This document shows positions 5,176 to 16,802 of a stretch of DNA of 64,000 bases, piece by piece. A program made the position numbers and the translations under genes. Origin of the DNA: Alistipes sp. (lineage in GTDB: Bacteria; Bacteroidota; Bacteroidia; Bacteroidales; Rikenellaceae); contig JAGBCY010000018.1 in the NCBI GenBank assembly GCA_017937765.1, forward strand, positions 1 to 64,000, read 5' to 3'. Within the stretch, counting starts at the first letter, position 1. Each line of letters opens with the position of its first letter. A model generated the notes under the pieces. It did not search any database. It was not told where the DNA came from and saw only the letters and a program-made list of their open reading frames with translations.

Positions 5176-5576
5176 GGGGGTGACCGGTTTTGACAGCAGG
5201 TAGAATTCGATTGTAAGCACGTCGAGCTTTGTGTGGGGTCTCGTTAAACTGAACGCTCAAGCTATAAATGGCAATAACAATTACGCACTCGCTGCCTAAT
5301 TTTCCAGGAAAATTGGCTTAATCGCGTGACCCAAGGCGGTCGTGTGACGAGTATCCCGAGAGGTCGTTCCGCTCTTTAATGGCCAATCACTATGGGGTAT
5401 CATCAATTAAGAGATAGCGTGGTATGTGCCTCGGTTATCACGCGAGATTTAGGGGCTGGGCCTCGGGTTTGGCTGCCGCCTGCCTGGCTCGAGGAGAAGG
5501 ACTAAACGGTCGGCTAAACGTGTAGAAAGCTCTGGGGTTCCTTGTTTGGACGCGGGTTCGACCCCCGCCACCTCCA
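5176..5576 (+). ncRNA. ssrA: Transfer-messenger RNA (tmRNA, SsrA)
   Basis: Rescues stalled ribosomes by adding a degradation tag. The 5' end GGGGGTGACCGGTTTTGAC is the conserved tmRNA start, and GGGGGTG (5176-5182) pairs with CACCTCC (5569-5575) to form the acceptor stem, with discriminator A at 5576. The T-arm is GCGGG-TTCGACC-CCCGC (5552-5568). The tag frame at 5270-5299 reads GNNNYALAA then TAA; known Bacteroidetes tags such as GENNYALAA end the same way, and the second residue is Asn here rather than Glu. The 3' CCA is not encoded. A clean terminator follows at 5583-5608. The last part of the T-loop, the 3' end and the terminator are repeated at 5854-5964. Confidence 0.95.
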
Positions 5577-5670
5577 CTTTGGGTCTGCGATTTGTCGCAG
5601 ACTTTTTTGTTTGTATGTGGGACAAATGTGTGTGCTACGGCAAAGGCGCGTAACTGTGTTACTGTCGGGG
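5559..5670 (+). repeat. Direct repeat copy 1: tmRNA 3' end plus terminator
   Basis: This copy is the functional end of tmRNA. It starts inside the T-loop (CGACC) and runs through the acceptor stem, the terminator and about 60 nt beyond. The copy at 5854-5964 shows only scattered mismatches and one-base indels. Layout and start point suit an attachment site used by a site-specific integrase. Confidence 0.85.
5583..5608 (+). terminator. tmRNA terminator
   Basis: Eight-bp stem GTCTGCGA/TCGCAGAC (5583-5590, 5595-5602) with loop TTTG and a T6 run. Duplicated at 5877-5902 with loop TTCG. Confidence 0.9.
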
Positions 5671-5853
5671 CAGGAGATTGTAGACCTTGTAAACAAGTTT
5701 CCAGTCCTCAATCTCCCGCCCCGTGAGCTACGCTCGCACCTTTGAGATACTCCACCTACCCTCGTTTCAGTGGCGGTGATTTTTTCGGGGTTGCCGCATT
5801 CGCGGAAATCAAGTTTCCACAAATGACGGCTTCGATTGGATAAGCCAATCGTC
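5671..5853. other. Spacer between the tmRNA 3'-end repeats, no gene recognised
   Basis: The 183 bp between the repeat copies has no plausible coding region. An imperfect inverted repeat spans its left edge: GGGGCAGGAGATTG (5667-5680) and CAATCTCCCGCCCC (5709-5722), with one mismatch. The rest shows no feature I can name; it may be the remnant of an excised or decayed insertion. Confidence 0.5.
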
Positions 5854-5964
5854 CGACCCCGCCACCTCCACTTTTGGTCTGCGATTCGTCGCAGACTTTT
5901 TTGTTTGTATGTGGGACAACGGTGAGTGCTGCGGCAAAGGTGCGTAACTGTGTTACCGCCGGGG
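5854..5964 (+). repeat. Direct repeat copy 2: displaced tmRNA 3' end plus terminator
   Basis: Near copy of 5559-5670, offset by 295 bp. It contains the tail CCGCCACCTCCA and the terminator stem GTCTGCGA/TCGCAGAC (5877-5884, 5889-5896) with a T6 run, but no upstream tmRNA body. It is therefore a displaced 3' fragment and not a second gene. Confidence 0.85.
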
Positions 5965-5974
5965 TTGCCGGGAA

Positions 5975-6007
5975 TAAAAAAGCAGGAAACCCAAAAGGCT
6001 TCCTGCT
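5975..6007 (-). terminator. Terminator of the nuclease/TonB locus
   Basis: On the minus strand AGCAGGAA (6007-6000) pairs with TTCCTGCT (5988-5981) and is followed by a run of T. It lies 25 nt after the stop codon of the DUF5689 lipoprotein gene, the last gene of the locus. Confidence 0.8.
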
Positions 6008-6031: not shown

Positions 6032-7357
6032 TTAATACTCCGACTCGCCATCTTCGTCGATCCAGGGCACACTCTTCATATCGTCGGTGGTCATCGCCGC
6101 AACCTGCTCGTCGGTGAGCAACGCATCCTCGCCATTGTCGAACTCAATATCCGAGAAGCTGCTGATTGTCAGCTGATACGAGGCGTAGTCGTTAGCATTG
6201 CCGGCATAGTCCGAACGCTGAGCGTAGATGCCATAGATAGCAGTAATCGTAGCCTTCTCGCCATCCTTGCACACGTTGCGACGTGCGAAGCGCGAGTAGC
6301 CGCTGGTGCGCAGTGCGTAGACGCCATTCTCCGAACATACCGTTGCCGATGGGTTGTAGGTGAAGAGCACCGATCCATAGAGGCTACGGCCCGTTATCTC
6401 TTCCTTATATGCCCAGTGGTACCACGGCTTAGATACCGTGGGACGCGGGTCGGTATACAACCAACTCGGGTAGATATTCTCGAACGATCCGCTCTTGAGT
6501 GCAGGGTTTGTCACGCCATCCTGATTGGGAACGCCAGCGTAGTGGCACTCGAGACCCTCAAAGCGCATAAGACGGCCGAACATAAGCTCGCGCTGCGAGA
6601 TCTCGAAAACCTTATGCTCGAGACCTGTGGCGGCATCCTTCTTCGTCGTGCCGTAGAACTTACCCTCCATCTCTACCTTTGCGGGAGAGAATACCTCAGT
6701 GTAGTTCTCGGGCGTAACGGTGATGATGTCGACACCGGGAGTGTAATACTTCCACTCGCCAAAATCTCCAACCTTGAGGCCGCCCTCAGCCTTACGGCCA
6801 GGGAATACGTGCTGGTCGATGATCTCCTGAAGCTCGATGTTAGAGTTGGCGTAATACTTGTGCTCACCAGCCTTGTTGTACGACTCCGAGGGTGCACCGC
6901 CAAGCGACAACATCATACGATAGTTGCCGAGGTAGAGACCCGTAAGGCGCACATATACCCACGTACCCTTCTTATAGCGAAGGCCTACGTTGTTGTTTAG
7001 CTTGAGCTCGATACCTGTGGTCTCGTCCTGAATGTAGAGCGACTTGTAGACGTTACCCTGATCGTCATCCGTGGTAACCTTACCCTTGATATATACATCG
7101 TGACCCGCGAAGATATCCTCACCGATGAGCTTGTAGATAGTATTGTTCCAGCCGCTGTTTACGCCCGTGTTGCTGATAGGTCCAAAGGCGTACTTAAGCT
7201 CGGCGATGGTGATACGCTCAGCCTCGGGGAACATCTCTTCGAATGTTGCGTCGGTGTAGATCTCGCGAGGTCCCACCATTGTGTGCTCTTCATAACAGCC
7301 AACAGCCACAATCGCTGCGGCTAACATTGTGATAAGTTTGTTCAATTTCATAGTCAT
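6032..7357 (-). CDS. DUF5689 domain lipoprotein
   Basis: Predicted outer-membrane-anchored lipoprotein: the N-terminus has a hydrophobic stretch and lipobox AVGC within the first 25 residues. Residues about 45-160 resemble the DUF5689 domain (AELKYAFG near its start, then YIKGKVTTDD and SLYIQDETTGIELKL), an OB-like fold family of unknown function in Bacteroidetes. A second region to the C-terminus (about 441 residues in total) is not recognised. It is the last gene of the five-gene locus and starts 12-20 nt after the TonB receptor, a position often taken by the surface lipoprotein partner of a TonB transporter. ATGs at 7357 and 7351 are both usable; a TTG at 7360 is unlikely. The DUF5689 call is fairly firm; a substrate-binding role is inferred. 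Confidence 0.8.
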   Translation of the reverse strand: MTMKLNKLITMLAAAIVAVGCYEEHTMVGPREIYTDATFEEMFPEAERITIAELKYAFGPISNTGVNSGWNNTIYKLIGEDIFAGHDVYIKGKVTTDDDQGNVYKSLYIQDETTGIELKLNNNVGLRYKKGTWVYVRLTGLYLGNYRMMLSLGGAPSESYNKAGEHKYYANSNIELQEIIDQHVFPGRKAEGGLKVGDFGEWKYYTPGVDIITVTPENYTEVFSPAKVEMEGKFYGTTKKDAATGLEHKVFEISQRELMFGRLMRFEGLECHYAGVPNQDGVTNPALKSGSFENIYPSWLYTDPRPTVSKPWYHWAYKEEITGRSLYGSVLFTYNPSATVCSENGVYALRTSGYSRFARRNVCKDGEKATITAIYGIYAQRSDYAGNANDYASYQLTISSFSDIEFDNGEDALLTDEQVAAMTTDDMKSVPWIDEDGESEY

Positions 7358-7371
7358 CAATTATTTAGCTG

Positions 7372-10302
7372 TTAGAATCTGAAGTAAATGTTGAGGTAAT
7401 AGTTAAGGCCCGTCATATAGAAATACTTAGAGTCGAAACGCGAATATGTCGTAGGAATGGTCACGATCGACGCACCGCCCTCGGCATTGGGGAAGATGAC
7501 GGGGTCCGAGATCTTGTTCAGACGCATCTGCTCGTAACCACCCGTGCGGATTGTCTGGTTATTGAGGATGTTGTTTACCTGAAGACTGAAGCCGAGCGTG
7601 TACTTGTATTTGATATACCAGTTCTTGCCGATGCTTGCGCTCAGGGTGTAGGCATTGCCAAGCTCCTCCTGAGCACGGATACCGTCGATGATATCCACGA
7701 CGTATGCCTTCTGGCGACCCGACTCGAGGTTCTGGAAGTCGTATATACGCATAAGCTCCTGAGCGAGATACTGCGTACGATACATCGGGTTCATCGAGAG
7801 GTAGAGGCGGTCGTAGAAGTTGAAGTCTATGGATGCGTACCAGTTCTTCGGACCACGGAAGTTCAGGCCTACGTTGATAGCCGTCTGCGGCGTGCTCTCA
7901 ACCTTCATACCCTCCCAGTTTACCACGCTGTTAACCACGTCGGTAGCCGAGTTGTCGATCATCTGCGTGAACTTGGGGTTCGAAGTGTAGATGTAGTCGC
8001 CATAGCTAATTGCACTATTGAGCGAGAGGCCCCACGCGATAGGGATATTGAGGCCGAGCTCAACACCCATATATCGCTTGTCGATGCCCGACATTGCGAA
8101 GTTGGTGAACGAGCTCTGGGTGTCGTCGTAGAACGAGATCACCTTCGACTGATCCTGCATCGAGGTGTAGTATGCCGAAAGTCGAGCACGAATCCACGGC
8201 AGGCGAAGATTATAGCTAAAGTCTACACCATAGATCTTCTCGGCCTGCAAGCCAGGGGTGATCTGGTTACGTGTACGTGCCGACACGAAGGCGTTGTTAA
8301 ACATCGGTGCATTCTGCATTGCCGTAGCGTTAAGGTCGATGCTGTGGGCACCAGAGAACTGATATGTGAGGTTGGCCTTCACCTTGTAGGTGAGAGTGTT
8401 AATTTTGTCGGAGTTGCCGAGCGAAGTCTTGCCACGGTCGCCGCCGGCATTAGCGTTCTGGAAAAGACCCTTCTCCCAGAGACCCTCGCGCCAGATGCTC
8501 GAGAAGCCGAGCTCGGCACCAATGTTTGCCGAGAAGCCACCAGTCGACACCTCGTACATAGCCCAAAGCTGGCCCTGACGTACGTGGGCGTAGTAGTCGT
8601 AGCCATACTTGTCGCCCTCGCGAACGGTCTGTGCCTGGCCGTGCTCGCGATAGTAGGCCATATTGTTCTGATACGACTCGACGTTGCTACCGAAGTCTCG
8701 CTCTGCAAACTTATCGACATCAAGCCAGTAGTCGCCACCCAAGAGGTCCTTAACAGTGCTGTAATACTCCGTGCGGTTGATGCGTGCGCGAAGGCCCACA
8801 GTGAGCTTCGAGCCGCCGCGGAATACGTGGCCGAGCTGTGCTGCGAAGTTGTAGTCGATCTGGTCGGTGTGACGCTCCTCGATCATAGCCACCGAGCGAT
8901 GGCCCTCGCCATACTTCTCGACATCCTTGTCGCCCATCATATTATCCTGAATGAGACCGTCGAAGTCGATATAGCCATCCCAGTTGTTGTAGTACTCGAG
9001 ATACTTGGCCTTATCTGTCTCTAAATCAATCTCTGAGAATGGGGGTGTGAGGTCGTTGGCCTCGGCGAAGTTGTTAAGCATCAAACGACGCTCCAGACGG
9101 TCGCCGTAGTATGAGGGTAACTTACGGTAATAGTCCGGACGGGGATCCTCACCCTTATACCACGTGAGTGCCGAGTAGCCATTGAAGCCAAAACGGATAG
9201 AGGTAGCCACAGAGAGGTTGGTGTTCTCGTTGATCTGCCAGTTGTAGTTAAGCATTGCGATAGGCTCGTGCATACGACGCACGCGGGCATTTCGCTCCTC
9301 GCCATCCTGCAGACCGACGTTGGGGTTGTAGTAGTTGTCGCCCCAGAGGTCATAGGCCTCCTGTGTTGATGCCTGCTGAGCACCGCGCGTGGTGGGTGCA
9401 CCGAGAATGGTTGCTGAGAGGCGATGACGCGAGTTAAATACCTTTTCGGCTGAGAAGAAGTAGCCGTAGGCGTTGTAGTAGACACCGTTAACATAACCAT
9501 TGCCACCCTGACGTGTCGAGAGCGTGAAGCCGTACGACCAGCCATTGTCCAGCGCGCCCGAGGCGTAGCTCACCATCGCACGGAAGCGGTAGAGCTGCGT
9601 AGAGTTAACGACACTGGCACGGAAGCCCTTACGGAGCTGCGAGGCGCGGGCGTTGATGTTTGTGGTGCCGGCAACACCACCAAGACCGAAGTCCGACATC
9701 TTCAGACCGGTAGTAGCCTCCTGATTACGTGTGGCGTCGTTAAGACCGCTCCACAGCGACCACGGACCGTAGCTCGTGAGTGCGTCGTTGAAGCGGATGC
9801 CATTGAGGTAGACATCCTGATACTGAGAGTCGTAGCCTCGCACGTTGAAGCGCATCTCCGAGAAGCGGTACGATGCGATGTTGTTGAATACATCCTTCGA
9901 TGCTGACAGCGACGTGGGTAGTGCCTGCGAGTCGCCCGCAGTCTCAACGTCGGAGTCCAACTCCGCGAATACCGAGTCGTCGACAGTCATCATCGTTGAT
10001 GGAACCATCACGACATTCTGCATATCGTGGATGAGCTCCTTGACACGTACCATAAGCTCGAGGTCCTCGAAATCGGGAGCCTCAAGGCGCAAAAGGTACT
10101 GGCCCGGGGCGAGACCTTTAATTTCGAACTCGCCCTCTTGGTTGGTCGTCGTGTTTACGGCAACGCCGTCAACAAAGAGCGCGACACCCGATATGGGTGT
10201 ACGTCCGTCGCGTGACACAACCACACCCTTCATACCGCCGGTCTGCGCATAGGCACCGAGGCATAGAAGCGTGCACAAGATTGTTAATAGAAATTTCCTC
10301 AT
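7372..10302 (-). CDS. TonB-dependent outer membrane receptor with N-terminal regulatory-like domain
   Basis: Outer-membrane active transporter of 976 residues powered by TonB/ExbBD. It has a signal peptide ending near AYAQ (residue 20), then a carboxypeptidase-regulatory-like beta domain (about 23-105, GVVVSRDGRTPISGVALFVDG), a plug domain (about 120-240, FNVRGYDSQYQDVYLNG) and a large beta barrel rich in aromatic strands that ends in Phe (YFRF). This is SusC-like in layout, but no SusD homologue is adjacent. Instead it is followed by a DUF5689 lipoprotein (12 nt) and preceded by a secreted nuclease of the EEP fold (19 nt). The tight spacing indicates one transcript. The cargo is not evident from the receptor itself; the neighbours suggest nucleic-acid fragments or nucleotides. 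Confidence 0.9.
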   Translation of the reverse strand: MRKFLLTILCTLLCLGAYAQTGGMKGVVVSRDGRTPISGVALFVDGVAVNTTTNQEGEFEIKGLAPGQYLLRLEAPDFEDLELMVRVKELIHDMQNVVMVPSTMMTVDDSVFAELDSDVETAGDSQALPTSLSASKDVFNNIASYRFSEMRFNVRGYDSQYQDVYLNGIRFNDALTSYGPWSLWSGLNDATRNQEATTGLKMSDFGLGGVAGTTNINARASQLRKGFRASVVNSTQLYRFRAMVSYASGALDNGWSYGFTLSTRQGGNGYVNGVYYNAYGYFFSAEKVFNSRHRLSATILGAPTTRGAQQASTQEAYDLWGDNYYNPNVGLQDGEERNARVRRMHEPIAMLNYNWQINENTNLSVATSIRFGFNGYSALTWYKGEDPRPDYYRKLPSYYGDRLERRLMLNNFAEANDLTPPFSEIDLETDKAKYLEYYNNWDGYIDFDGLIQDNMMGDKDVEKYGEGHRSVAMIEERHTDQIDYNFAAQLGHVFRGGSKLTVGLRARINRTEYYSTVKDLLGGDYWLDVDKFAERDFGSNVESYQNNMAYYREHGQAQTVREGDKYGYDYYAHVRQGQLWAMYEVSTGGFSANIGAELGFSSIWREGLWEKGLFQNANAGGDRGKTSLGNSDKINTLTYKVKANLTYQFSGAHSIDLNATAMQNAPMFNNAFVSARTRNQITPGLQAEKIYGVDFSYNLRLPWIRARLSAYYTSMQDQSKVISFYDDTQSSFTNFAMSGIDKRYMGVELGLNIPIAWGLSLNSAISYGDYIYTSNPKFTQMIDNSATDVVNSVVNWEGMKVESTPQTAINVGLNFRGPKNWYASIDFNFYDRLYLSMNPMYRTQYLAQELMRIYDFQNLESGRQKAYVVDIIDGIRAQEELGNAYTLSASIGKNWYIKYKYTLGFSLQVNNILNNQTIRTGGYEQMRLNKISDPVIFPNAEGGASIVTIPTTYSRFDSKYFYMTGLNYYLNIYFRF

Positions 10303-10320
10303 AGAGATATGGATTAATTA

Positions 10321-11358
10321 TTACTTACCTATGTATATATATACGGGGAAGTGGTCGCTAAAGCCGTTCTGGAAGTTGTTAGTGACGAACGTACGTAGTG
10401 GGTAACCCTTGTACTGACCCTCCTGCTGGAGCATATAGGGGCGCGAGAAGATGTTGCCCCAGTACTTCATACCCTCGCCCTTAACCAAGCGGAGCTTGCC
10501 ATCCTCGGCGTTAATCAGGTTCTCCGTAACGCATATGTTATCAAAGAGGTTCCAAGCATCCTGATAGGCGAGAGTTCCGAGGCCTGCGCGAAGCATCTGG
10601 TTGTAGGGGTTGAAGAAGTCGCCCGCCTCGAGATCCTTGACCTTGCCCTTTGCACCCATAGTCTTTACGATGCTGGCATCCGTGGCGTCGTCGTTGAAGT
10701 CGCCCATAACGATAACCTTTGTTGCGGGATTCTCGCTAAGGAGTGAATCCTTGATGGCACGAATCTGCGTAGCACAGGCGTCACGCTTGAACTGCGAGGC
10801 CTCCTTGCCACCGAGGCGTGAGGGCCAGTGCGACACGAGGAAGTAGAATGGCTCATCCTCGATTGTTCCCCACATAACCACAAGGTCGCGCGTACGGAAG
10901 TCGGGCAACTCCTCGACCTCGAGCTTGATGTTGTCAGAGCCCTCGAGCTTGAATACATCGGCACGATAGAGGAATGCCACATCCACACCACGAGCATCGG
11001 GCGAGTCGTAGTGGCAGATACGGTAGTTGGCCCCCTGGAGCTTGGGCTGCGAGATGAGATCCTCAAGCACGGTACGATTCTCTATCTCCGACACGCCGAT
11101 GACTATCGGGTACTCCTTCTGGATGGCCGCGATGTCGAACAATACGCGCTCCATATTCGAGAGCTTCTTCTGGTACTTGATTTCGTTCCACTGCTTGACA
11201 CCCTCGGGTGTGAACTCGTCGTCGTGAGTCTCGGGGTCGTTGTAGATGTCGAAAAGGTTTTCGAGGTTGTAGAAGACTACGGTGTAGGGCTTCTCCTGAG
11301 CAAAGAGCGTCGTGAGGGAGAGCATCGCTACGCATAGCATCAAAATGTTACGTTTCAT
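10321..11358 (-). CDS. Secreted endonuclease/exonuclease/phosphatase (EEP) family protein
   Basis: Metal-dependent phosphodiesterase of the DNase I-like fold, 345 residues, with a signal peptide (cleavage likely after LFA, about residue 20) and no lipobox, so probably periplasmic or secreted. The catalytic signatures are intact in order: FYNLENLFD (Asn), VSEIENR (metal Glu), DARGVDVAFLYR, SHWPSRLGG (His), GDFNDD (Asp/Asn) and a C-terminal SDHFPV (Asp-His). Such proteins cleave DNA, RNA or other phosphodiesters; the exact substrate is not certain. It sits between a DNA/RNA non-specific endonuclease (75 nt upstream) and a TonB receptor (19 nt downstream), which favours nucleic-acid processing outside the cell. 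Confidence 0.88.
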   Translation of the reverse strand: MKRNILMLCVAMLSLTTLFAQEKPYTVVFYNLENLFDIYNDPETHDDEFTPEGVKQWNEIKYQKKLSNMERVLFDIAAIQKEYPIVIGVSEIENRTVLEDLISQPKLQGANYRICHYDSPDARGVDVAFLYRADVFKLEGSDNIKLEVEELPDFRTRDLVVMWGTIEDEPFYFLVSHWPSRLGGKEASQFKRDACATQIRAIKDSLLSENPATKVIVMGDFNDDATDASIVKTMGAKGKVKDLEAGDFFNPYNQMLRAGLGTLAYQDAWNLFDNICVTENLINAEDGKLRLVKGEGMKYWGNIFSRPYMLQQEGQYKGYPLRTFVTNNFQNGFSDHFPVYIYIGK

Positions 11359-11433
11359 ATTATCGCAATTTTAGTCGTTTATTCTGTTGTGCTTATCTCT
11401 GCATCTTAGTCGGTTAAGTACTATCGGGTGCGG

Positions 11434-12639
11434 TTAGTTATTAATGCCCCACGACGAGGGAGTGATTGTCGACTGCACCTCCGCCTCGATTCTATCGTCG
11501 ATCATCGGGAAGAAGTCGAAGCCCGTGCGACGCTCCAATTCCTCGATCGTAATGCAATCGGCTGAAGTGATCTTTGTGTCGTTTCCCGTGTTGGCGTGCT
11601 CGAACCAGAAGGCTATGGCACGAAGCTGCGAGGCATCGCTAATCTCGTCTATGCGGCGGCCAGTGTTTCCCTTCACGGTGCGAAGTAGAGCCTTGTAATA
11701 GTGTGTGGGTGTGGGACATACGTTGCCCGAGCGATCCGTCGTCTCGGCATCAATCGATGAGTGGTGCTCACCCGCAAAATGTGCGCCTGTTACGACAAAG
11801 AGCGTATCCGAGCAGACCATATTACGCACACGCCCCTCAAGCGTTCCCCACTTATTCTGGTTGAAGTTACCCTGTTGCGGGGTCATATTTGTTGAGTAGA
11901 ATGTCTGGTCCATCATCTCTTGCGAACATTTTCTATCGGCTGCGGGGAGCTGGTGGCCACGGTCGTACCAGCCGTTGTAGGACTTGAAGAGGTTGGCCTG
12001 CACTGAGATACTCACCGTGGGGTCGTAGCCAAACGAGCTATCGTTGCGATTACCGCTACCCGACATATGTGCCGAGTGTAGCGGGTAGGCTACCCACAAT
12101 GAGGCACGCACCGTGGGGTCGAAGCAGAAGGTGTAGTTGCGTGCATCCTGCTTGGCTCCGAGCTGGCCGTAATGGGTGTTGTATATATATCGGTCGTCTA
12201 CTGTGCATAGCGGCAACTCGGCCCAGTCGCGCGTGAAGGCGATGCTCGAGTCGTAGCTCAGCTGTGTGAAGCTGCTGTCGAAGTATGCACCATCGGAGAA
12301 CTCTACCCTAACACGTGCCGTGCGCTTCGCGCCCGAGGGGTTGGTATCGAAGTAGATGTAGATAACCTTCTCGCTGGCGGTCATAGTATCTGTCGCGATG
12401 GTCTCGCGGTTCGAGAAGCGTGCCCAGTCGCCATCCGATATGATGGTTGCCGAGTACGACGTACCCTGTTGTGCTCGGAGCACCACAGCGCAATTCTTAC
12501 TCCTGCCATCCACCTCTGTGGCTGTGAGGTAGGCCTCACTTGCAATCTTATCCGCCTTATCGCCGTCGCATCCCGTAGCACCGAGAGTTGCTAATATTGT
12601 AGCTATTGCGATGGTTATCTTATTGATAATGTGCTGCAT
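11434..12639 (-). CDS. Lipoprotein DNA/RNA non-specific endonuclease
   Basis: Predicted surface or periplasmic nuclease of the DNA/RNA non-specific (beta-beta-alpha-metal, NucA/Serratia) family. The lipobox ATGC places the lipid-anchored Cys at residue 24. Residues about 35-130 form a beta-sandwich-like N-terminal domain, weakly BACON-like. The nuclease domain has DRGH at 226-229 (general base His229), then the metal-site motif NMTPQ at 251-255 with Asn260, Trp264 and Glu268 in the expected spacing. Catalytic residues therefore look complete. Second gene of the five-gene locus, 94 nt behind the giant lipoprotein and 75 nt before the EEP gene. It would produce short fragments of DNA or RNA. 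Confidence 0.9.
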   Translation of the reverse strand: MQHIINKITIAIATILATLGATGCDGDKADKIASEAYLTATEVDGRSKNCAVVLRAQQGTSYSATIISDGDWARFSNRETIATDTMTASEKVIYIYFDTNPSGAKRTARVRVEFSDGAYFDSSFTQLSYDSSIAFTRDWAELPLCTVDDRYIYNTHYGQLGAKQDARNYTFCFDPTVRASLWVAYPLHSAHMSGSGNRNDSSFGYDPTVSISVQANLFKSYNGWYDRGHQLPAADRKCSQEMMDQTFYSTNMTPQQGNFNQNKWGTLEGRVRNMVCSDTLFVVTGAHFAGEHHSSIDAETTDRSGNVCPTPTHYYKALLRTVKGNTGRRIDEISDASQLRAIAFWFEHANTGNDTKITSADCITIEELERRTGFDFFPMIDDRIEAEVQSTITPSSWGINN

Positions 12640-12733
12640 CTTATTTGTTGTTTTCGTAGCGTAGAAGATTCTCTCGCCAGCCTCGGACAGGGACTACCCT
12701 ACCCGAGGCGTTTGGCGAAAGAGTGATTAGGAA

Positions 12734-15700
12734 TTAGTTGTGTGCGGTCCACATAATATCCCAGATAGAGTAACGATCCTTGTTGCTCTCTGAATTGGCA
12801 GAGGGGCAGTTGTTGGTGATAACAATCTGGAAGTCACCAGCAACATTTACCTCCTCCGAGAATGTGAACTTAGCAAACTTGGTATTGTCGGCGTTTACTA
12901 CGTTGAAGCTCTTAACCACAGCACCATTCTGGACGATCTCTACATTGAAGTCGTAGCCATTCTTCTCGGTGAAGGCGATACCATAGTTAAATGTAAGAGT
13001 GCCGCAACCTGTTGAGATAACGGGTGAAGTGATCTTACCTATGGCCGATGTCTTACCGTTGATAACCCAAGCGCGAGTGTTCTCATCAGCACCAAGCAAT
13101 GAGTTGAATACGGGGTTTGAATCATTAGCACCACCTGACTGAACAGCGCAGTTCTCACCTACCCAGCCAGCAGTTGACTTTCGAGCAGTGTAAGATGAGT
13201 TCGAATCAATAGTATTGAAGTCGTCGCGACCAGCGTAACCCTCGGGAGCTACGGGGTTCTCAGGCTCGGGCTCCTCGCCACCTGCATCACCAAAACGGTT
13301 GCCTGTCAAGCCAGCATAGTCAGATGCCTGAGCGAAGATAATCTGCAAGTTGCCGTTGTTGATCGATGAGATACCCTTCAACGTACCAGAACCCTGAGCT
13401 ACTGTCTCTGCACCATAAGTAGCATACTTCGATGAGAATACAACGAACTTGTTGCCAGTAGCATCCTCAATAGCAATTGAGGTGTGCTTGCCATCCATTA
13501 CCCACGTCTTTGAGAGCTCTGCATCAGCAACCTGAACACCATCAATGGCGATATACTGACCCTCGTACTTGTTAGCGAGGAAGTCTGCAATAGATACGGT
13601 CTTGGCTGCAACAGTGTTGCCAGTAGATACGACGGTAATCTTATCCAATGCAAGGCCGCTAACCTGAACGGCACCGTTGTACGAGCCGAGCGTTGCACCC
13701 GTGAGGTCGATCTTAACCTTTGTGCCGAAAGCGAACTCGTGGTTAGCACCGAGGTAGAACTGCAATGCGCCAGTCTCGTCCTGAACGTACATACCCTTCT
13801 TCGAGGTGAGGTTGTTGAGCTCGTAGTTAGATACTACCGTAGCCTCGATAGTGCCGTTGATTGTAGCACCATCGCCAAGAGCCAATACTGATGCGATTGT
13901 TACAACATCGCCGGGAGTGGGCTCGGGCTCGGGAGTCTCGCCACTACCTGGCGTGTGTGAGATATAGGTTGCATTCTTACCCTGAGGCGTACCGCTGAAT
14001 GAGGTGCGGATGGTCTGAACGGTGATGGTATCACCAATCTTCACGCCCGAAGCCTCCCAGTACTTGTTGCCATCCTTGTCCATAAGACCGTAGATGAGCA
14101 CCTCGCCGGTAGCATCCTTAAGATAGAAGTTGCCGTAGAGAGTATCATTGGGGTTATCCTCGCGGTACATACGTGTAATCTCGCCAGTGAGCTCGTAGAT
14201 CGTTGAATCCTCGGCAGCTGCCAAGAACTCTGCTACGGTAGCCTTAACAACCGAAGGCTCGGGCTCGGGAGTGGTACCACCACCCTGGTTGCCGAGAGGC
14301 TCGTCGGTGAGCTTAACGCCGCAAACGATAGCGCGGCCGCTTGTCTCATTCGTAACAGCAGAGAATGAAGCGTCGGTCGAGAACTCGATGGTAGAGGTTG
14401 ACTTCAAGCCAGTGAGCTTTACTGAGTAGTGGTCAGAGTCAGAGAACTTGAGAGCGTCGTAGGGGGGATTGCTTGTAGCACCATCGTTTGACGCGGGAGT
14501 CAAAGTCTGCGTAGCACCTCCATCAACACGGAAGTAGAGAGTCGCGCTCTTACCCTTCCAAGCAACAGCATACATATTGAGGTACTTATCGCCATCAACA
14601 CCAACAGCCGATGACTTAAAGTAACCGCTCTTCTTACCCGTACCGAGCTTGAAACCAGTGGCAGCATTGCCATTGATGGTAGTTTCGCCGAGACCGTATA
14701 CAGCATTTGCAGAGTCGTCGGTTGCACATACGAACGCAGCGTCAGAGGCGTAGATGCCCTCAGCTACGGGAGGTTCGGGAGTCTCGCCACCCTCACCTGC
14801 AACGTGCGAGATGTAGATCGCGCTACCTACCTGAGGCTCCTCCTTGTATGATGTGCGACGACCACGGAGTGTGATAGTGTCGCCACTCTTAAGGCCGAGC
14901 GATGTGAAGACCTTGTTGCCTGCCTCGTCGTAGAGACCGTAAACATAGGTTGTGCCAGTCTCATCGCTCATATAGAAGTTGCCGAAGTCGGTAGCCTTAA
15001 CCTCACCGATAACGCCCGTGAGCTCATACCAAGTGTTATCCTCGGCAGCAGCCAAGAACTCGGCGATAGTCACCTTCTTAACCTCGATCTCGGGAGCCTC
15101 GCCCTGAGCCGTGCACTCAACAAGCATAGTGTTCACGTACTTCGAGCTGCTTACACCGATAGTGTAACCACGAACTACGATCTCCTGACCATCAGCAGCG
15201 TCAACCGTGCCAGCGATAGGATATGAGATTGAACCAACGGCGGTCTGTGCGCCGGGAACAGTAACATTGTAGTATGAGCCGCTGATAGTCAAGACGCCGG
15301 TATACTCAACATACTTGATTGCGGGAGAGAGGAGGTAAGCATCCATTGCAGCACCGTCCAACTTCTCGGGCGTGGGCTGAGTGAATGAACCCTCAGAGAT
15401 AACAGTAACCTCGGGAGCGGGACCGTAAACGTCGCTTGAGTCCTTAACGGCAGCGAACTGCTTGAAGCCACCATAGGTAGTCACGGTACCCTCAACCGAT
15501 ACCTTCGTACCGATCTTTACGGTTGCAGTAGCGTTGGTGTAGACGAGGAGCTTACCGGTAGCATCCTCCATCAAGAAACCGCGGTTGTAGATGGCGATAA
15601 CCGTAGCCTCGTTAACCTTTACAGATGTGCCATCAGCAGCCTCGATAGCCGCAGCGATGCTGCCCTCCTCCGAGGGCTCGGGAGCCTCACCAGGTGTGAG

Positions 15701-16666
15701 CGTTACCTGCTGGCCGCCGTTGCCTACGAAGAGCTTAACGTCGTCGAGACGGTAAACGCTTGCAACGTTGGCGTTGAACTTGATGTAGAGATTCTCGGGT
15801 ACTTCGGTGAGTGTGAACTCAGCGGTTGCAACATTCCAGCGACCACCCTCGGTACCTGCGTAGGTGTACTCGATCTCTGACCAGCCGTAACCATCCATCG
15901 AGAGCATTACGTGGAACTCAGAGTTCTTGAAGATGCTGTCGCCATCCTGCGAATACTTCTCCGAACCGAAGGTGAGCTTGTAGCTTGCCTGCGATGCATC
16001 GAGCGAGATGCCGTTGATCTGGAAGTAGGCGTTAGCACCGAAGAAGATGTTGTTCGAGCCAGAACCAGCGTAGTCCGAGTAGTTGCTGTTCGAAGTAGAG
16101 TTAGCACGTACCGATACACCTGAACCAGTGTATGTTACGTTCTCTGAAGCGGGACCCTCGGGATTAGCGAACTCGGGGAACTGGTCGATATAGGGCCACG
16201 ATGAACCCGAACCATAGGTCTTGGTAGCCTCCTGACCATCGAAGTTGTCGCCATAGAGAAGTACCTCCTCGACGGTAGGCTCCTCGGTGGCTGACTGCGA
16301 TACGGTAATCTTCTTTGTGTCGAAGTTACCATAGGTGGGGTGCTGAGCGTGAACCTTGATAACAGCCTCACGGATAGCACCCGTGTCATTCATAGCAACA
16401 GCGATAGTGATAGTTGCATCGCCCTTGCCAGCTGCGGGGGTTACAGTGACCCAGTCGGCACCATTCTCCACCTTCCACTCTGCGTTTGAGGTTACGTCAA
16501 CAGTCTGGCTTCCCTCCTGGTTTGTAAAGTTCAGCGTCGTGGCCGAAACCTCCACAGTAGGATTGCCAACCACATCCTCACCCTTATCCTCACAAGCTAC
16601 AAAACCGAGCGCACTGCCCAGAATGGTAGCAACAGCAAAGATGGACTTGAAAAGTTTGTTTACCAT
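12734..16666 (-). CDS. Giant multidomain lipoprotein with BACON domain and repeated OB-like modules
   Basis: Predicted cell-surface lipoprotein of 1310 residues; the lipobox FVAC puts the anchored Cys at residue 25. Domains, by eye: BACON domain (about 35-128, ending KKITVSQS), a jelly-roll-like module (134-317), an OB-like module (335-415), a beta module (430-520), two clearly related OB-like modules (about 530-625 and 810-910, both with AEFLAAAED, YELTG, GNFY, IYGL or VYGL, GDTIT and YISH), a separate beta module between them (640-790), a DUF5689/OB-like pair (930-1140) and a C-terminal choice-of-anchor-like module (1160-1310). Pro-Glu linkers separate several modules. First gene of the nuclease/TonB locus. 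OB folds often bind single-stranded nucleic acid, so a capture role is plausible but inferred; carbohydrate binding is an alternative. Confidence 0.85.
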   Translation of the reverse strand: MVNKLFKSIFAVATILGSALGFVACEDKGEDVVGNPTVEVSATTLNFTNQEGSQTVDVTSNAEWKVENGADWVTVTPAAGKGDATITIAVAMNDTGAIREAVIKVHAQHPTYGNFDTKKITVSQSATEEPTVEEVLLYGDNFDGQEATKTYGSGSSWPYIDQFPEFANPEGPASENVTYTGSGVSVRANSTSNSNYSDYAGSGSNNIFFGANAYFQINGISLDASQASYKLTFGSEKYSQDGDSIFKNSEFHVMLSMDGYGWSEIEYTYAGTEGGRWNVATAEFTLTEVPENLYIKFNANVASVYRLDDVKLFVGNGGQQVTLTPGEAPEPSEEGSIAAAIEAADGTSVKVNEATVIAIYNRGFLMEDATGKLLVYTNATATVKIGTKVSVEGTVTTYGGFKQFAAVKDSSDVYGPAPEVTVISEGSFTQPTPEKLDGAAMDAYLLSPAIKYVEYTGVLTISGSYYNVTVPGAQTAVGSISYPIAGTVDAADGQEIVVRGYTIGVSSSKYVNTMLVECTAQGEAPEIEVKKVTIAEFLAAAEDNTWYELTGVIGEVKATDFGNFYMSDETGTTYVYGLYDEAGNKVFTSLGLKSGDTITLRGRRTSYKEEPQVGSAIYISHVAGEGGETPEPPVAEGIYASDAAFVCATDDSANAVYGLGETTINGNAATGFKLGTGKKSGYFKSSAVGVDGDKYLNMYAVAWKGKSATLYFRVDGGATQTLTPASNDGATSNPPYDALKFSDSDHYSVKLTGLKSTSTIEFSTDASFSAVTNETSGRAIVCGVKLTDEPLGNQGGGTTPEPEPSVVKATVAEFLAAAEDSTIYELTGEITRMYREDNPNDTLYGNFYLKDATGEVLIYGLMDKDGNKYWEASGVKIGDTITVQTIRTSFSGTPQGKNATYISHTPGSGETPEPEPTPGDVVTIASVLALGDGATINGTIEATVVSNYELNNLTSKKGMYVQDETGALQFYLGANHEFAFGTKVKIDLTGATLGSYNGAVQVSGLALDKITVVSTGNTVAAKTVSIADFLANKYEGQYIAIDGVQVADAELSKTWVMDGKHTSIAIEDATGNKFVVFSSKYATYGAETVAQGSGTLKGISSINNGNLQIIFAQASDYAGLTGNRFGDAGGEEPEPENPVAPEGYAGRDDFNTIDSNSSYTARKSTAGWVGENCAVQSGGANDSNPVFNSLLGADENTRAWVINGKTSAIGKITSPVISTGCGTLTFNYGIAFTEKNGYDFNVEIVQNGAVVKSFNVVNADNTKFAKFTFSEEVNVAGDFQIVITNNCPSANSESNKDRYSIWDIMWTAHN

Positions 16667-16771: not shown

Positions 16772-16802
16772 CAAAGATACTACTTTAATCCTAAAGTAAA
16801 AA
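16772..16802 (-). promoter_or_regulatory. Promoter of the nuclease/TonB locus
   Basis: TATCTTTG on the minus strand (16779-16772), with TTT rather than TTG 20 nt upstream. It would give an AT-rich leader of roughly 100 nt ahead of the giant lipoprotein gene. Confidence 0.55.

Follow-up and report, generated by a model that had tools for sequence, protein, structure and literature searches.

The five minus-strand genes in one part of the window (the whole 64-kb stretch of DNA analysed) probably encode a machine that takes extracellular DNA across the outer membrane, a reading to which we give a probability of roughly 0.64. In 5′ to 3′ order, they encode a giant lipoprotein, a DRGH (PF01223) nuclease (NS), a PF19580 nuclease (EEP), a TonB-receptor-like protein (TBDT) and a DUF5689 lipoprotein (LIP). 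Because TBDT and LIP are related to transformation genes of Riemerella anatipestifer, we read the five genes as a likely surface apparatus for gripping, cutting and importing extracellular DNA, most likely in the service of transformation and perhaps of feeding as well.

All five ORFs were found within positions 6032-16666 in an operon layout (Table 1), as a sequence-only reading of this DNA had described, with gaps of 94, 75, 18 and 11 nt from the giant gene to LIP; the last becomes 14 nt if LIP is counted from ATG, its second codon, rather than from its TTG start codon. That reading had also assigned the genes one promoter and one terminator, and a motif search gave a candidate for each. The candidate −7 box, identified with what we take to be the Bacteroidota consensus, is the sole such motif in the upstream gap, with none in the four internal gaps and 59 in the whole 64 kb on both strands, and a strong terminator-like hairpin follows LIP. 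A generic sigma-70 and terminator scan was near chance and listed neither the box nor the hairpin. The five genes are probably co-transcribed. A mobile origin, hinted at by a duplicated tmRNA flank, was rejected: the window has just two copies of the repeat core, both ahead of the 3′ end of the operon.

Table 1. Features of the five-gene operon and its flanking signals
Feature	Position	Strand	Details
Candidate Bacteroidota −7 promoter box	16772..16779	-	TATCTTTG; perfect motif, ~105 nt 5′ of first start codon
Giant surface lipoprotein, 1310 aa	12734..16666	-	Lipobox GFVAC-EDKGED; BACON aa 63-124; OB-type modules; DUF5689 aa 922-1116
Giant, OB-type module 1, aa 334-390	15497..15667	-	BOF-like; 25.0 bits, just under cut-off of 25.8
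Giant, OB-type module 2, aa 522-603	14858..15103	-	NirD/YgiW/YdeI OB-fold; 33.6 bits, just under cut-off of 35
Giant, DUF5689 domain, aa 922-1116	13319..13903	-	E 1.6e-29
NS, DRGH (PF01223) nuclease, 401 aa	11434..12639	-	E 4.9e-37; lipobox-like leader
EEP, PF19580 nuclease, 345 aa	10321..11358	-	Full-length match, E 3.6e-110; signal peptide without lipobox
TBDT, TonB-dependent-receptor-like, 976 aa	7372..10302	-	N-terminal CarboxypepD_reg domain; relative of R. anatipestifer RA0C_RS04915
LIP, DUF5689 surface lipoprotein, 442 aa	6032..7360	-	Lipobox GC-YEEH; relative of RA0C_RS04920
Intrinsic-terminator-like hairpin and T-run, strong	5976..6007	-	3′ of last gene (LIP)

The first gene product bears out the description of a giant surface lipoprotein with OB-like modules, with its lipobox and two near-threshold OB-type matches. 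A third module, at about residues 795-915, shares 53% identity over 114 aa with the surroundings of module 2. LIP is likewise the DUF5689 lipoprotein that had been proposed; DUF5689, without DUF5017, is its only domain at E ≤ 0.001, and a search for solved relatives returned none at E ≤ 0.1. In Pfam and NCBIfam scans, neither the giant protein nor LIP matched a SusD family at E ≤ 0.001. Both LIP and the giant's modules are acidic, one OB module having 9 basic and 20 acidic residues, an odd feature for DNA-binding proteins that counts against the uptake reading.

NS belongs to the Serratia nuclease/EXOG/EndoG superfamily, and its active site is complete, with eight columns invariant in 28 of 28 NS proteins. 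The EEP active site (11 columns) is also complete, the only changes among 126 EEP proteins from 122 loci being one at E93 and two at R181. The claim of two nucleases of unrelated families with complete sites is thereby upheld, while the claim that both are secreted needs amending: NS appears to be a lipoprotein, not a freely secreted enzyme, and EEP has an ordinary leader of the signal-peptide type. The five same-genus NS proteins that failed a crude lipobox test all have a cysteine at a lipobox-like place, and the ten same-genus EEPs scored by that test all have C-F-A-Q/G, an ordinary cleavage site. The leaders suggest that NS lies outside and EEP perhaps in the periplasm, from which we infer the side on which each nuclease would work. 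Within the window genome, which is 85.7% complete, the operon EEP is the only PF19580 match found.

We label the window protein a TonB receptor because of Plug domain matches in members of its family (10 of 16 at E ≤ 0.1, best E 5.8e-7). Its own Plug match, at E 0.0016, is below the family cut-off, and sequence searches matched it to no barrel family or solved barrel; of the proposed TonB importer without SusD, the absence of SusD holds and the putative receptor identity rests on these Plug matches. In a careful tree of 28 chosen rows, a clade with 100/100 support unites the window and R. anatipestifer TBDTs and leaves five other TBDTs outside; a quick 75-row tree is less clear, with other TBDTs falling within the group on long branches. 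Identity between the window and Riemerella TBDTs is no more than 29-32%. The window TBDT is the best hit of the Riemerella protein in the window genome. At an R. anatipestifer-type locus (L139), the order is ComEC, a 145-aa ORF, a carboxyltransferase, EEP, TBDT and LIP, in agreement with published tags RS04895 to RS04920, so that the EEP gene next to RS04915 is probably RS04910, and a locus named R. anatipestifer (L146) has the same EEP-TBDT-LIP. The L139 LIP combines DUF5689 with a weak DUF5017 below cut-off, and the LIPs of two other loci (L063 and L067) match DUF5017 above it. The window thus shares with RS04915/RS04920 a common TBDT clade, a DUF5689 lipoprotein directly 3′ of TBDT and an adjoining EEP gene, but differs in that its EEP is on the same strand within the operon, in its additional DRGH nuclease and giant DUF5689/OB lipoprotein, and in the absence from LIP of the DUF5017 part, which is accessory and non-defining.

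In the excerpts of the R. anatipestifer study considered here, markerless deletion of either RA0C_RS04915 (TBDT) or RA0C_RS04920 (DUF5689) left no detectable transformation (below ~4e-10), compared with 5.4e-5 (PMC8459023). These excerpts are inconsistent on distribution, describing RS04915 homologues as 'widespread' in Bacteroidetes and as restricted to Flavobacteriaceae, and they do not mention the EEP partner. Published excerpts also report that transformation is inhibited in R. anatipestifer tonBA and tonBB mutants, and, as a point against the uptake reading, that competence was not observed in the laboratory in Flavobacterium johnsoniae. Since the window TBDT shares a clade with a TBDT required for transformation, the idea that the locus binds, cuts and imports nucleic acid is largely supported; cutting and trimming outside the cell is doubtful for EEP, given its leader. 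By analogy, the window genes would act as their Riemerella relatives do.

Both nucleases beside TBDT and a DUF5689 lipoprotein, a neighbourhood that the sequence-only reading had proposed to look for, proved to be conserved. Of the 26 same-genus loci fetched, 25 show the order NS>EEP>TBDT>LIP and the remaining one is interrupted by a contig end; the order occurs again in three genomes of two other families (G044, G290, G298). From EEP end to TBDT start there are 14-26 bases in 24 of 25 same-genus loci. A giant-like gene lies upstream in 20 of the 21 same-genus loci with room, amid varying flanks; the weakest giant-like labels scored 41 and 44 bits, and at one locus (L052) an unlabelled 805-aa ORF occupies the giant position. 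A chance cluster is ruled out because gene order is kept while the flanks change. Close relatives of TBDT occur in 27 of 36 same-genus genomes, and PF19580 is present in all nine of the others; exclusive co-occurrence of nucleases and TBDT inside the genus is ruled out, nucleases also occurring without TBDT. One genome (G020) retains giant-like>NS>EEP but lacks TBDT and LIP, and the nuclease module can therefore stand alone.

A reduced core, in which EEP adjoins TBDT-LIP, recurs across the class. Of the other 29 class loci, 21 have a divergent EEP adjoining TBDT-LIP; six have no EEP beside TBDT, and all six genomes carry an EEP elsewhere. Outside the genus, strong PF19580 matches were found in 29/29 class genomes with TBDT versus 3/22 without. 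LIP was unrecognised immediately downstream of TBDT in 10 of 64 named loci. The window genome also encodes ComEC, DprA, a DUF1343 family protein and a multi-HHH protein. As evidence for transformation, the presence of ComEC is uninformative, because it is found in 243 of 247 genomes, and its closeness to TBDT in Riemerella is not general, since the two lie on different contigs in one genome (G072).

We propose that the giant lipoprotein and LIP, through their DUF5689 and OB-type domains, would capture DNA at the surface, where NS may nick or shorten it in the way of EndA and NucM. A barrel of the TonB-dependent type would then move the DNA inward, energised by TonB, and EEP, perhaps periplasmic, may trim it or render it single-stranded before ComEC and DprA of the window genome would take over. 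EndA of Streptococcus pneumoniae and NucM of Moraxella catarrhalis are, in the excerpts considered, cell-surface entry nucleases tied to DNA uptake (PMC6384898). The window NS is also a DRGH DNA/RNA non-specific endonuclease predicted at the cell surface, but it is a predicted lipoprotein within a TBDT operon, and its uptake role is putative.

The same genes could instead serve feeding on nucleic acids in the manner of a PUL, with surface nucleases cutting DNA or RNA, TBDT importing oligonucleotides or nucleotides for carbon, nitrogen or phosphate, and recombination being incidental. We consider this unlikely, although one operon with two exported nucleases, the TBDT-less nuclease module of G020 and the accessory status of TBDT in the genus all fit it, as does the BACON domain, which is common in lipoproteins that bind glycans. 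Transformation, however, needs the Riemerella relatives; TBDT is nearly universal in one family (192/197 genomes), more like a core function; and the five genes include no SusD and no separate phosphatase. Published excerpts further indicate that Riemerella transformation falls when phosphate is removed, which also lends no help to the phosphate-limitation reading suggested earlier. All of these points are compatible with feeding as a second use.

A poorer fit, and in our view improbable, is that TBDT and LIP import another ligand (a metal, peptide or glycan), that the nucleases separately attack biofilm DNA or host DNA traps and that the loss of transformation in Riemerella is indirect. TonB receptors do take many ligands, TBDT and PF19580 occur apart in some genomes, and the Riemerella excerpts trace the tonBB effect through iron, with the authors suggesting a nutrient effect for tonBA. 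Yet PF19580 adjoins TBDT in many families, genomes outside the genus that lack TBDT mostly lack PF19580 too, and the excerpts attribute complete loss of transformation to each clean deletion, of TBDT or of LIP. Two exported nucleases might also degrade incoming DNA of phages or competitors on the cell surface, but we regard a defensive locus as scarcely credible: it would have no obvious use for an importer, and Pfam and NCBIfam scans of the locus matched no defence family.

Returning to DNA uptake, we reject the idea of an undescribed system: its TBDT and DUF5689 core is already known genetically, as the Riemerella transformation genes RA0C_RS04915/RS04920. New, as far as we know within the open-licence PMC literature, are the partner nucleases and the five-gene form in Bacteroidales; there we found neither the nuclease partnership with TBDT-LIP nor a published EEP-gene mutant, and DUF5689 turned up in one paper. 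These results bear on how DNA passes the outer membrane in Bacteroidota without the classical type IV pilus route. Once the Riemerella genes are tied to a set found repeatedly in the class, together with matching nucleases, they point to a concrete machine that can be tested, and some Bacteroidales may take in DNA in the Riemerella manner. More tentatively, and with somewhat more doubt than confidence, transforming DNA in Bacteroidia may cross the outer membrane through a TonB-driven receptor with dedicated DUF5689 DNA-capture lipoproteins and its own EEP (in some Bacteroidales also DRGH) nucleases, replacing the type IV pilus and secretin of other Gram-negatives; the window would be the most elaborate form found.

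The locus also resembles SusC/SusD loci in combining a TonB receptor, here a putative one, that has an N-terminal carboxypeptidase-regulatory domain with surface lipoproteins, but in place of SusD and carbohydrate enzymes it has nucleases. With ExeM/NucH-type extracellular DNases it shares an EEP nuclease, with a weak NF033681 match (25.5 bits against a cut-off of 300). EEP and OB-type domains are reportedly fused in one protein in ExeM, whereas in the window they are on separate proteins.

The five minus-strand ORFs proposed in the sequence-only reading, together with the gaps between them, were borne out on the window sequence. By Pfam, they encode a giant lipoprotein with BACON and DUF5689 (E 1.6e-29) domains, an Endonuclease_NS nuclease (NS; PF01223, E 4.9e-37), an Exo_endo_phos_3 nuclease (EEP; PF19580, E 3.6e-110), a TonB-receptor-like protein carrying CarboxypepD_reg (TBDT) and a DUF5689 lipoprotein (LIP). 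OB-like modules had been claimed for the giant; OB-fold matches are present, but all lie slightly below cut-offs. Two of its modules share 53% identity over 114 residues. The nuclease active sites are complete, as had been read: eight NS columns are invariant in 28/28 proteins, and across 122 loci, four of which carry two copies and so bring the set to 126 proteins, eleven EEP columns are invariant save one change at E93 and two at R181. The NS profile matched solved structures of EXOG, EndoG and bacterial nucleases, the latter presumably the Serratia and Anabaena enzymes.

Of 36 same-genus genomes, 27 carry TBDT relatives (≥55% identity, partial ones counted), and the remaining nine have weaker matches only. 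We fetched 26 of the 27 loci, leaving out G009. The order NS>EEP>TBDT>LIP was found in 25, the 26th (L061) ending at a contig edge, so the predicted neighbourhood, with both nucleases beside TBDT and DUF5689, is conserved beyond the window genome. A giant-labelled gene (41 to 1876 bits) precedes NS in 20 of the 26; this position is off the contig in five and holds an unlabelled 805-aa ORF in L052. Upstream RuvB was seen only in L036-L041, the six closest among the fetched loci. Among eight loci taken from further families in the order, the complete NS-EEP-TBDT-LIP set is present in one (L062), five have a divergent EEP with TBDT>LIP, L066 lacks EEP and LIP next to TBDT, and in L068 the contig stops after LIP. 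TBDTs of loci L101 and L102 (genomes G298 and G290, family f26) nest within the diversity of the window's genus, which suggests transfer of the operon between families.

A profile built from 16 TBDTs of the order was run on 247 phylum genomes. It gave full-length-type matches in 39/61 class genomes, counting the window genome and a match in G282 split over two adjoining frames (perhaps a broken gene or sequencing error), and in none of 186 genomes beyond the class, where three weak matches occurred. G101, G194 and G222, class genomes whose matches were all partial, were scored as TBDT-negative. Thirty regions were fetched; excluding L130, weak and outside the class, leaves 29 (L101-L129). LIP lies 3' of TBDT in 28 of these, 588 bases off in L115 and near in the others. 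EEP adjoins TBDT in 23, two on the same strand with NS and 21 divergent, and in each of the six genomes without a neighbouring EEP a PF19580 protein is encoded at another site. In family f30, an extra PF19580-type gene lies some kb 3' of LIP in three members. In the family containing Chryseobacterium cheonjiense (G072), TBDT is found in 192/197 genomes. Across 64 named loci, EEP lies within about 1.2 kb of TBDT in 61 (exceptions L189, at 6 kb, L190 and L207), and a recognised LIP follows immediately 3' in 54.

Co-occurrence was scored in 51 of the 61 class genomes, namely all 22 TBDT-negative and 29 of the 39 TBDT-positive ones. Strong PF19580 was present in 29/29 positive versus 3/22 negative genomes (Fisher p 3e-11, kinship ignored), the three being G101, G105 and G194; a weak match in G238 was left uncounted. 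The G194 gene lies near a TBDT of another kind. TBDT-less genomes of families f28 and f31 (two each) also lacked strong PF19580. Within the window's genus, PF19580 occurs in 37/37 genomes regardless of TBDT, which speaks against strict linkage; G026, whose locus is cut, has it only as a weak second type. In the seven of nine TBDT-less same-genus genomes whose PF19580 surroundings were inspected, no TBDT or LIP profile matches were seen there, and G020 retains giant-like lipoprotein>NS>EEP (L210, contig C5) without TBDT or LIP. Past these L210 genes lies a 943-aa ORF on the opposite strand. On contig C18 of genome G000, two small neighbouring genes for DUF5689 proteins resembling lipoproteins (260 and 249 aa) are preceded 5' by what we take to be a SerB-like gene; with the giant and LIP, they are all the DUF5689 matches found there.

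PMC8459023 describes two Riemerella genes as essential for transformation, RA0C_RS04915, whose product has a carboxypeptidase-regulatory domain and is predicted to lie in the outer membrane, and RS04920, which combines DUF5689 and DUF5017, markerless mutants falling below about 4e-10 versus 5.4e-5; one passage calls homologues of the Riemerella genes spread through Bacteroidetes, and another limits RS04915 homologues to Flavobacteriaceae. Riemerella tonBA and tonBB mutants are also reported to be impaired in transformation, with an iron defect for tonBB only. Locus L139 (genome G351) has the order ComEC, 145-aa ORF, carboxyltransferase, EEP, TBDT (PF13620) and LIP (DUF5689, weak DUF5017), matching tags 04895, 04900, 04905, 04910, 04915 and 04920 one for one; we infer that its EEP is RS04910. 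R. anatipestifer locus L146 also has EEP-TBDT-LIP, its TBDT 93% identical to that of L139. In a careful tree of 28 selected sequences, the longest left out, window and Riemerella TBDTs form one clade (100/100) against five other TBDTs; a quick 75-row tree attached five of six other TBDTs by a long branch next to the flavobacterial members and set the sixth close to the window's portion. When the Riemerella TBDT was searched in the window genome, the top hit was the window TBDT, at 186 and 126 bits against 108 and 75 for what ranked next. The window locus shares the TBDT-DUF5689 pair with Riemerella; its LIP shows no DUF5017. LIPs of L063 and L067, from other Bacteroidales families, do combine DUF5689 with DUF5017, as in Riemerella, and that of L063 additionally has DUF6359.

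A crude lipobox test on uncurated start codons was positive within the genus for LIP (26/26), NS (20/25, the five negatives each with Cys at the right place) and giant-labelled genes (19/20), and beyond it for LIP in 84/106. EEP scored 10/25 in the genus and 1/101 elsewhere; behind all ten genus positives is a C-F-A-Q/G motif resembling an ordinary cleavage site. Acidic residues past the lipoprotein Cys are a Bacteroidota surface-export signal, and among lipobox-bearing members of L036-L062 they occur in LIP (25/27), NS (15/21) and giant (20/20). From these leaders and acidic residues, giant, NS and LIP are probably located outside the cell, and EEP perhaps in the periplasm.

In the proposed mechanism, giant and LIP would capture DNA and NS would cut it at the surface; TBDT would pass it inward, driven by TonB, and EEP would trim the imported DNA, which ComEC would then receive. 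According to PMC6384898, EndA and NucM show that DRGH nucleases, to which the window NS belongs, can serve DNA uptake. The main weak points include the predicted acidic lipoproteins and the nuclease module persisting without TBDT in G020. At 85.7% completeness, the window genome encodes ComEC, DprA, DUF1343 family PF07075 and a 366-aa frame with four matches to HHH_3, our stand-in for the HHH domain named in the Riemerella paper. Four of the eight genes essential in Riemerella belong to these families. Because such families are widespread, their presence is compatible with uptake and nothing more. The sequence-only reading knew of no described system of this composition, which stands for the nuclease partners and giant but not for the TBDT-DUF5689 pair, already known in Riemerella. 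As far as seen, what is new is to find the TBDT clade in this gene arrangement among Bacteroidales, and to find EEP, a DRGH nuclease and a giant lipoprotein as its partners.

Coordinates of the features discussed (window positions unless a locus or contig is named)
Feature	Position	Strand	Remark
Candidate promoter box, perfect TATCTTTG	16779-16772	(-)	motif match
Strong terminator-like hairpin with T-run	6007-5976	(-)	after last gene
tmRNA gene region	5176-5577 / 5563-5964		tag GNNNYALAA
Two small DUF5689 genes	L005:4899-6405		
Split TBDT match	G282:C19:401300-404102		
Second PF19580-type gene, f30	L111:1829-2797		
Second PF19580-type gene, f30	L113:14533-15501		
Second PF19580-type gene, f30	L123:12663-13637		

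One promoter and one terminator had been assigned to the five genes. Both box and hairpin were found, and the four internal gaps of the locus contain no TATCTTTG box; this placement fits one transcript but is no proof of it. A 108-nt stretch starting in the last 15 nt of the tmRNA recurs 294 nt further on at 92%, with no third copy of its core within the 64-kb window. The repeat resembles the remnant of an insertion at the tmRNA, and the operon's 3' end lies just past the second copy.
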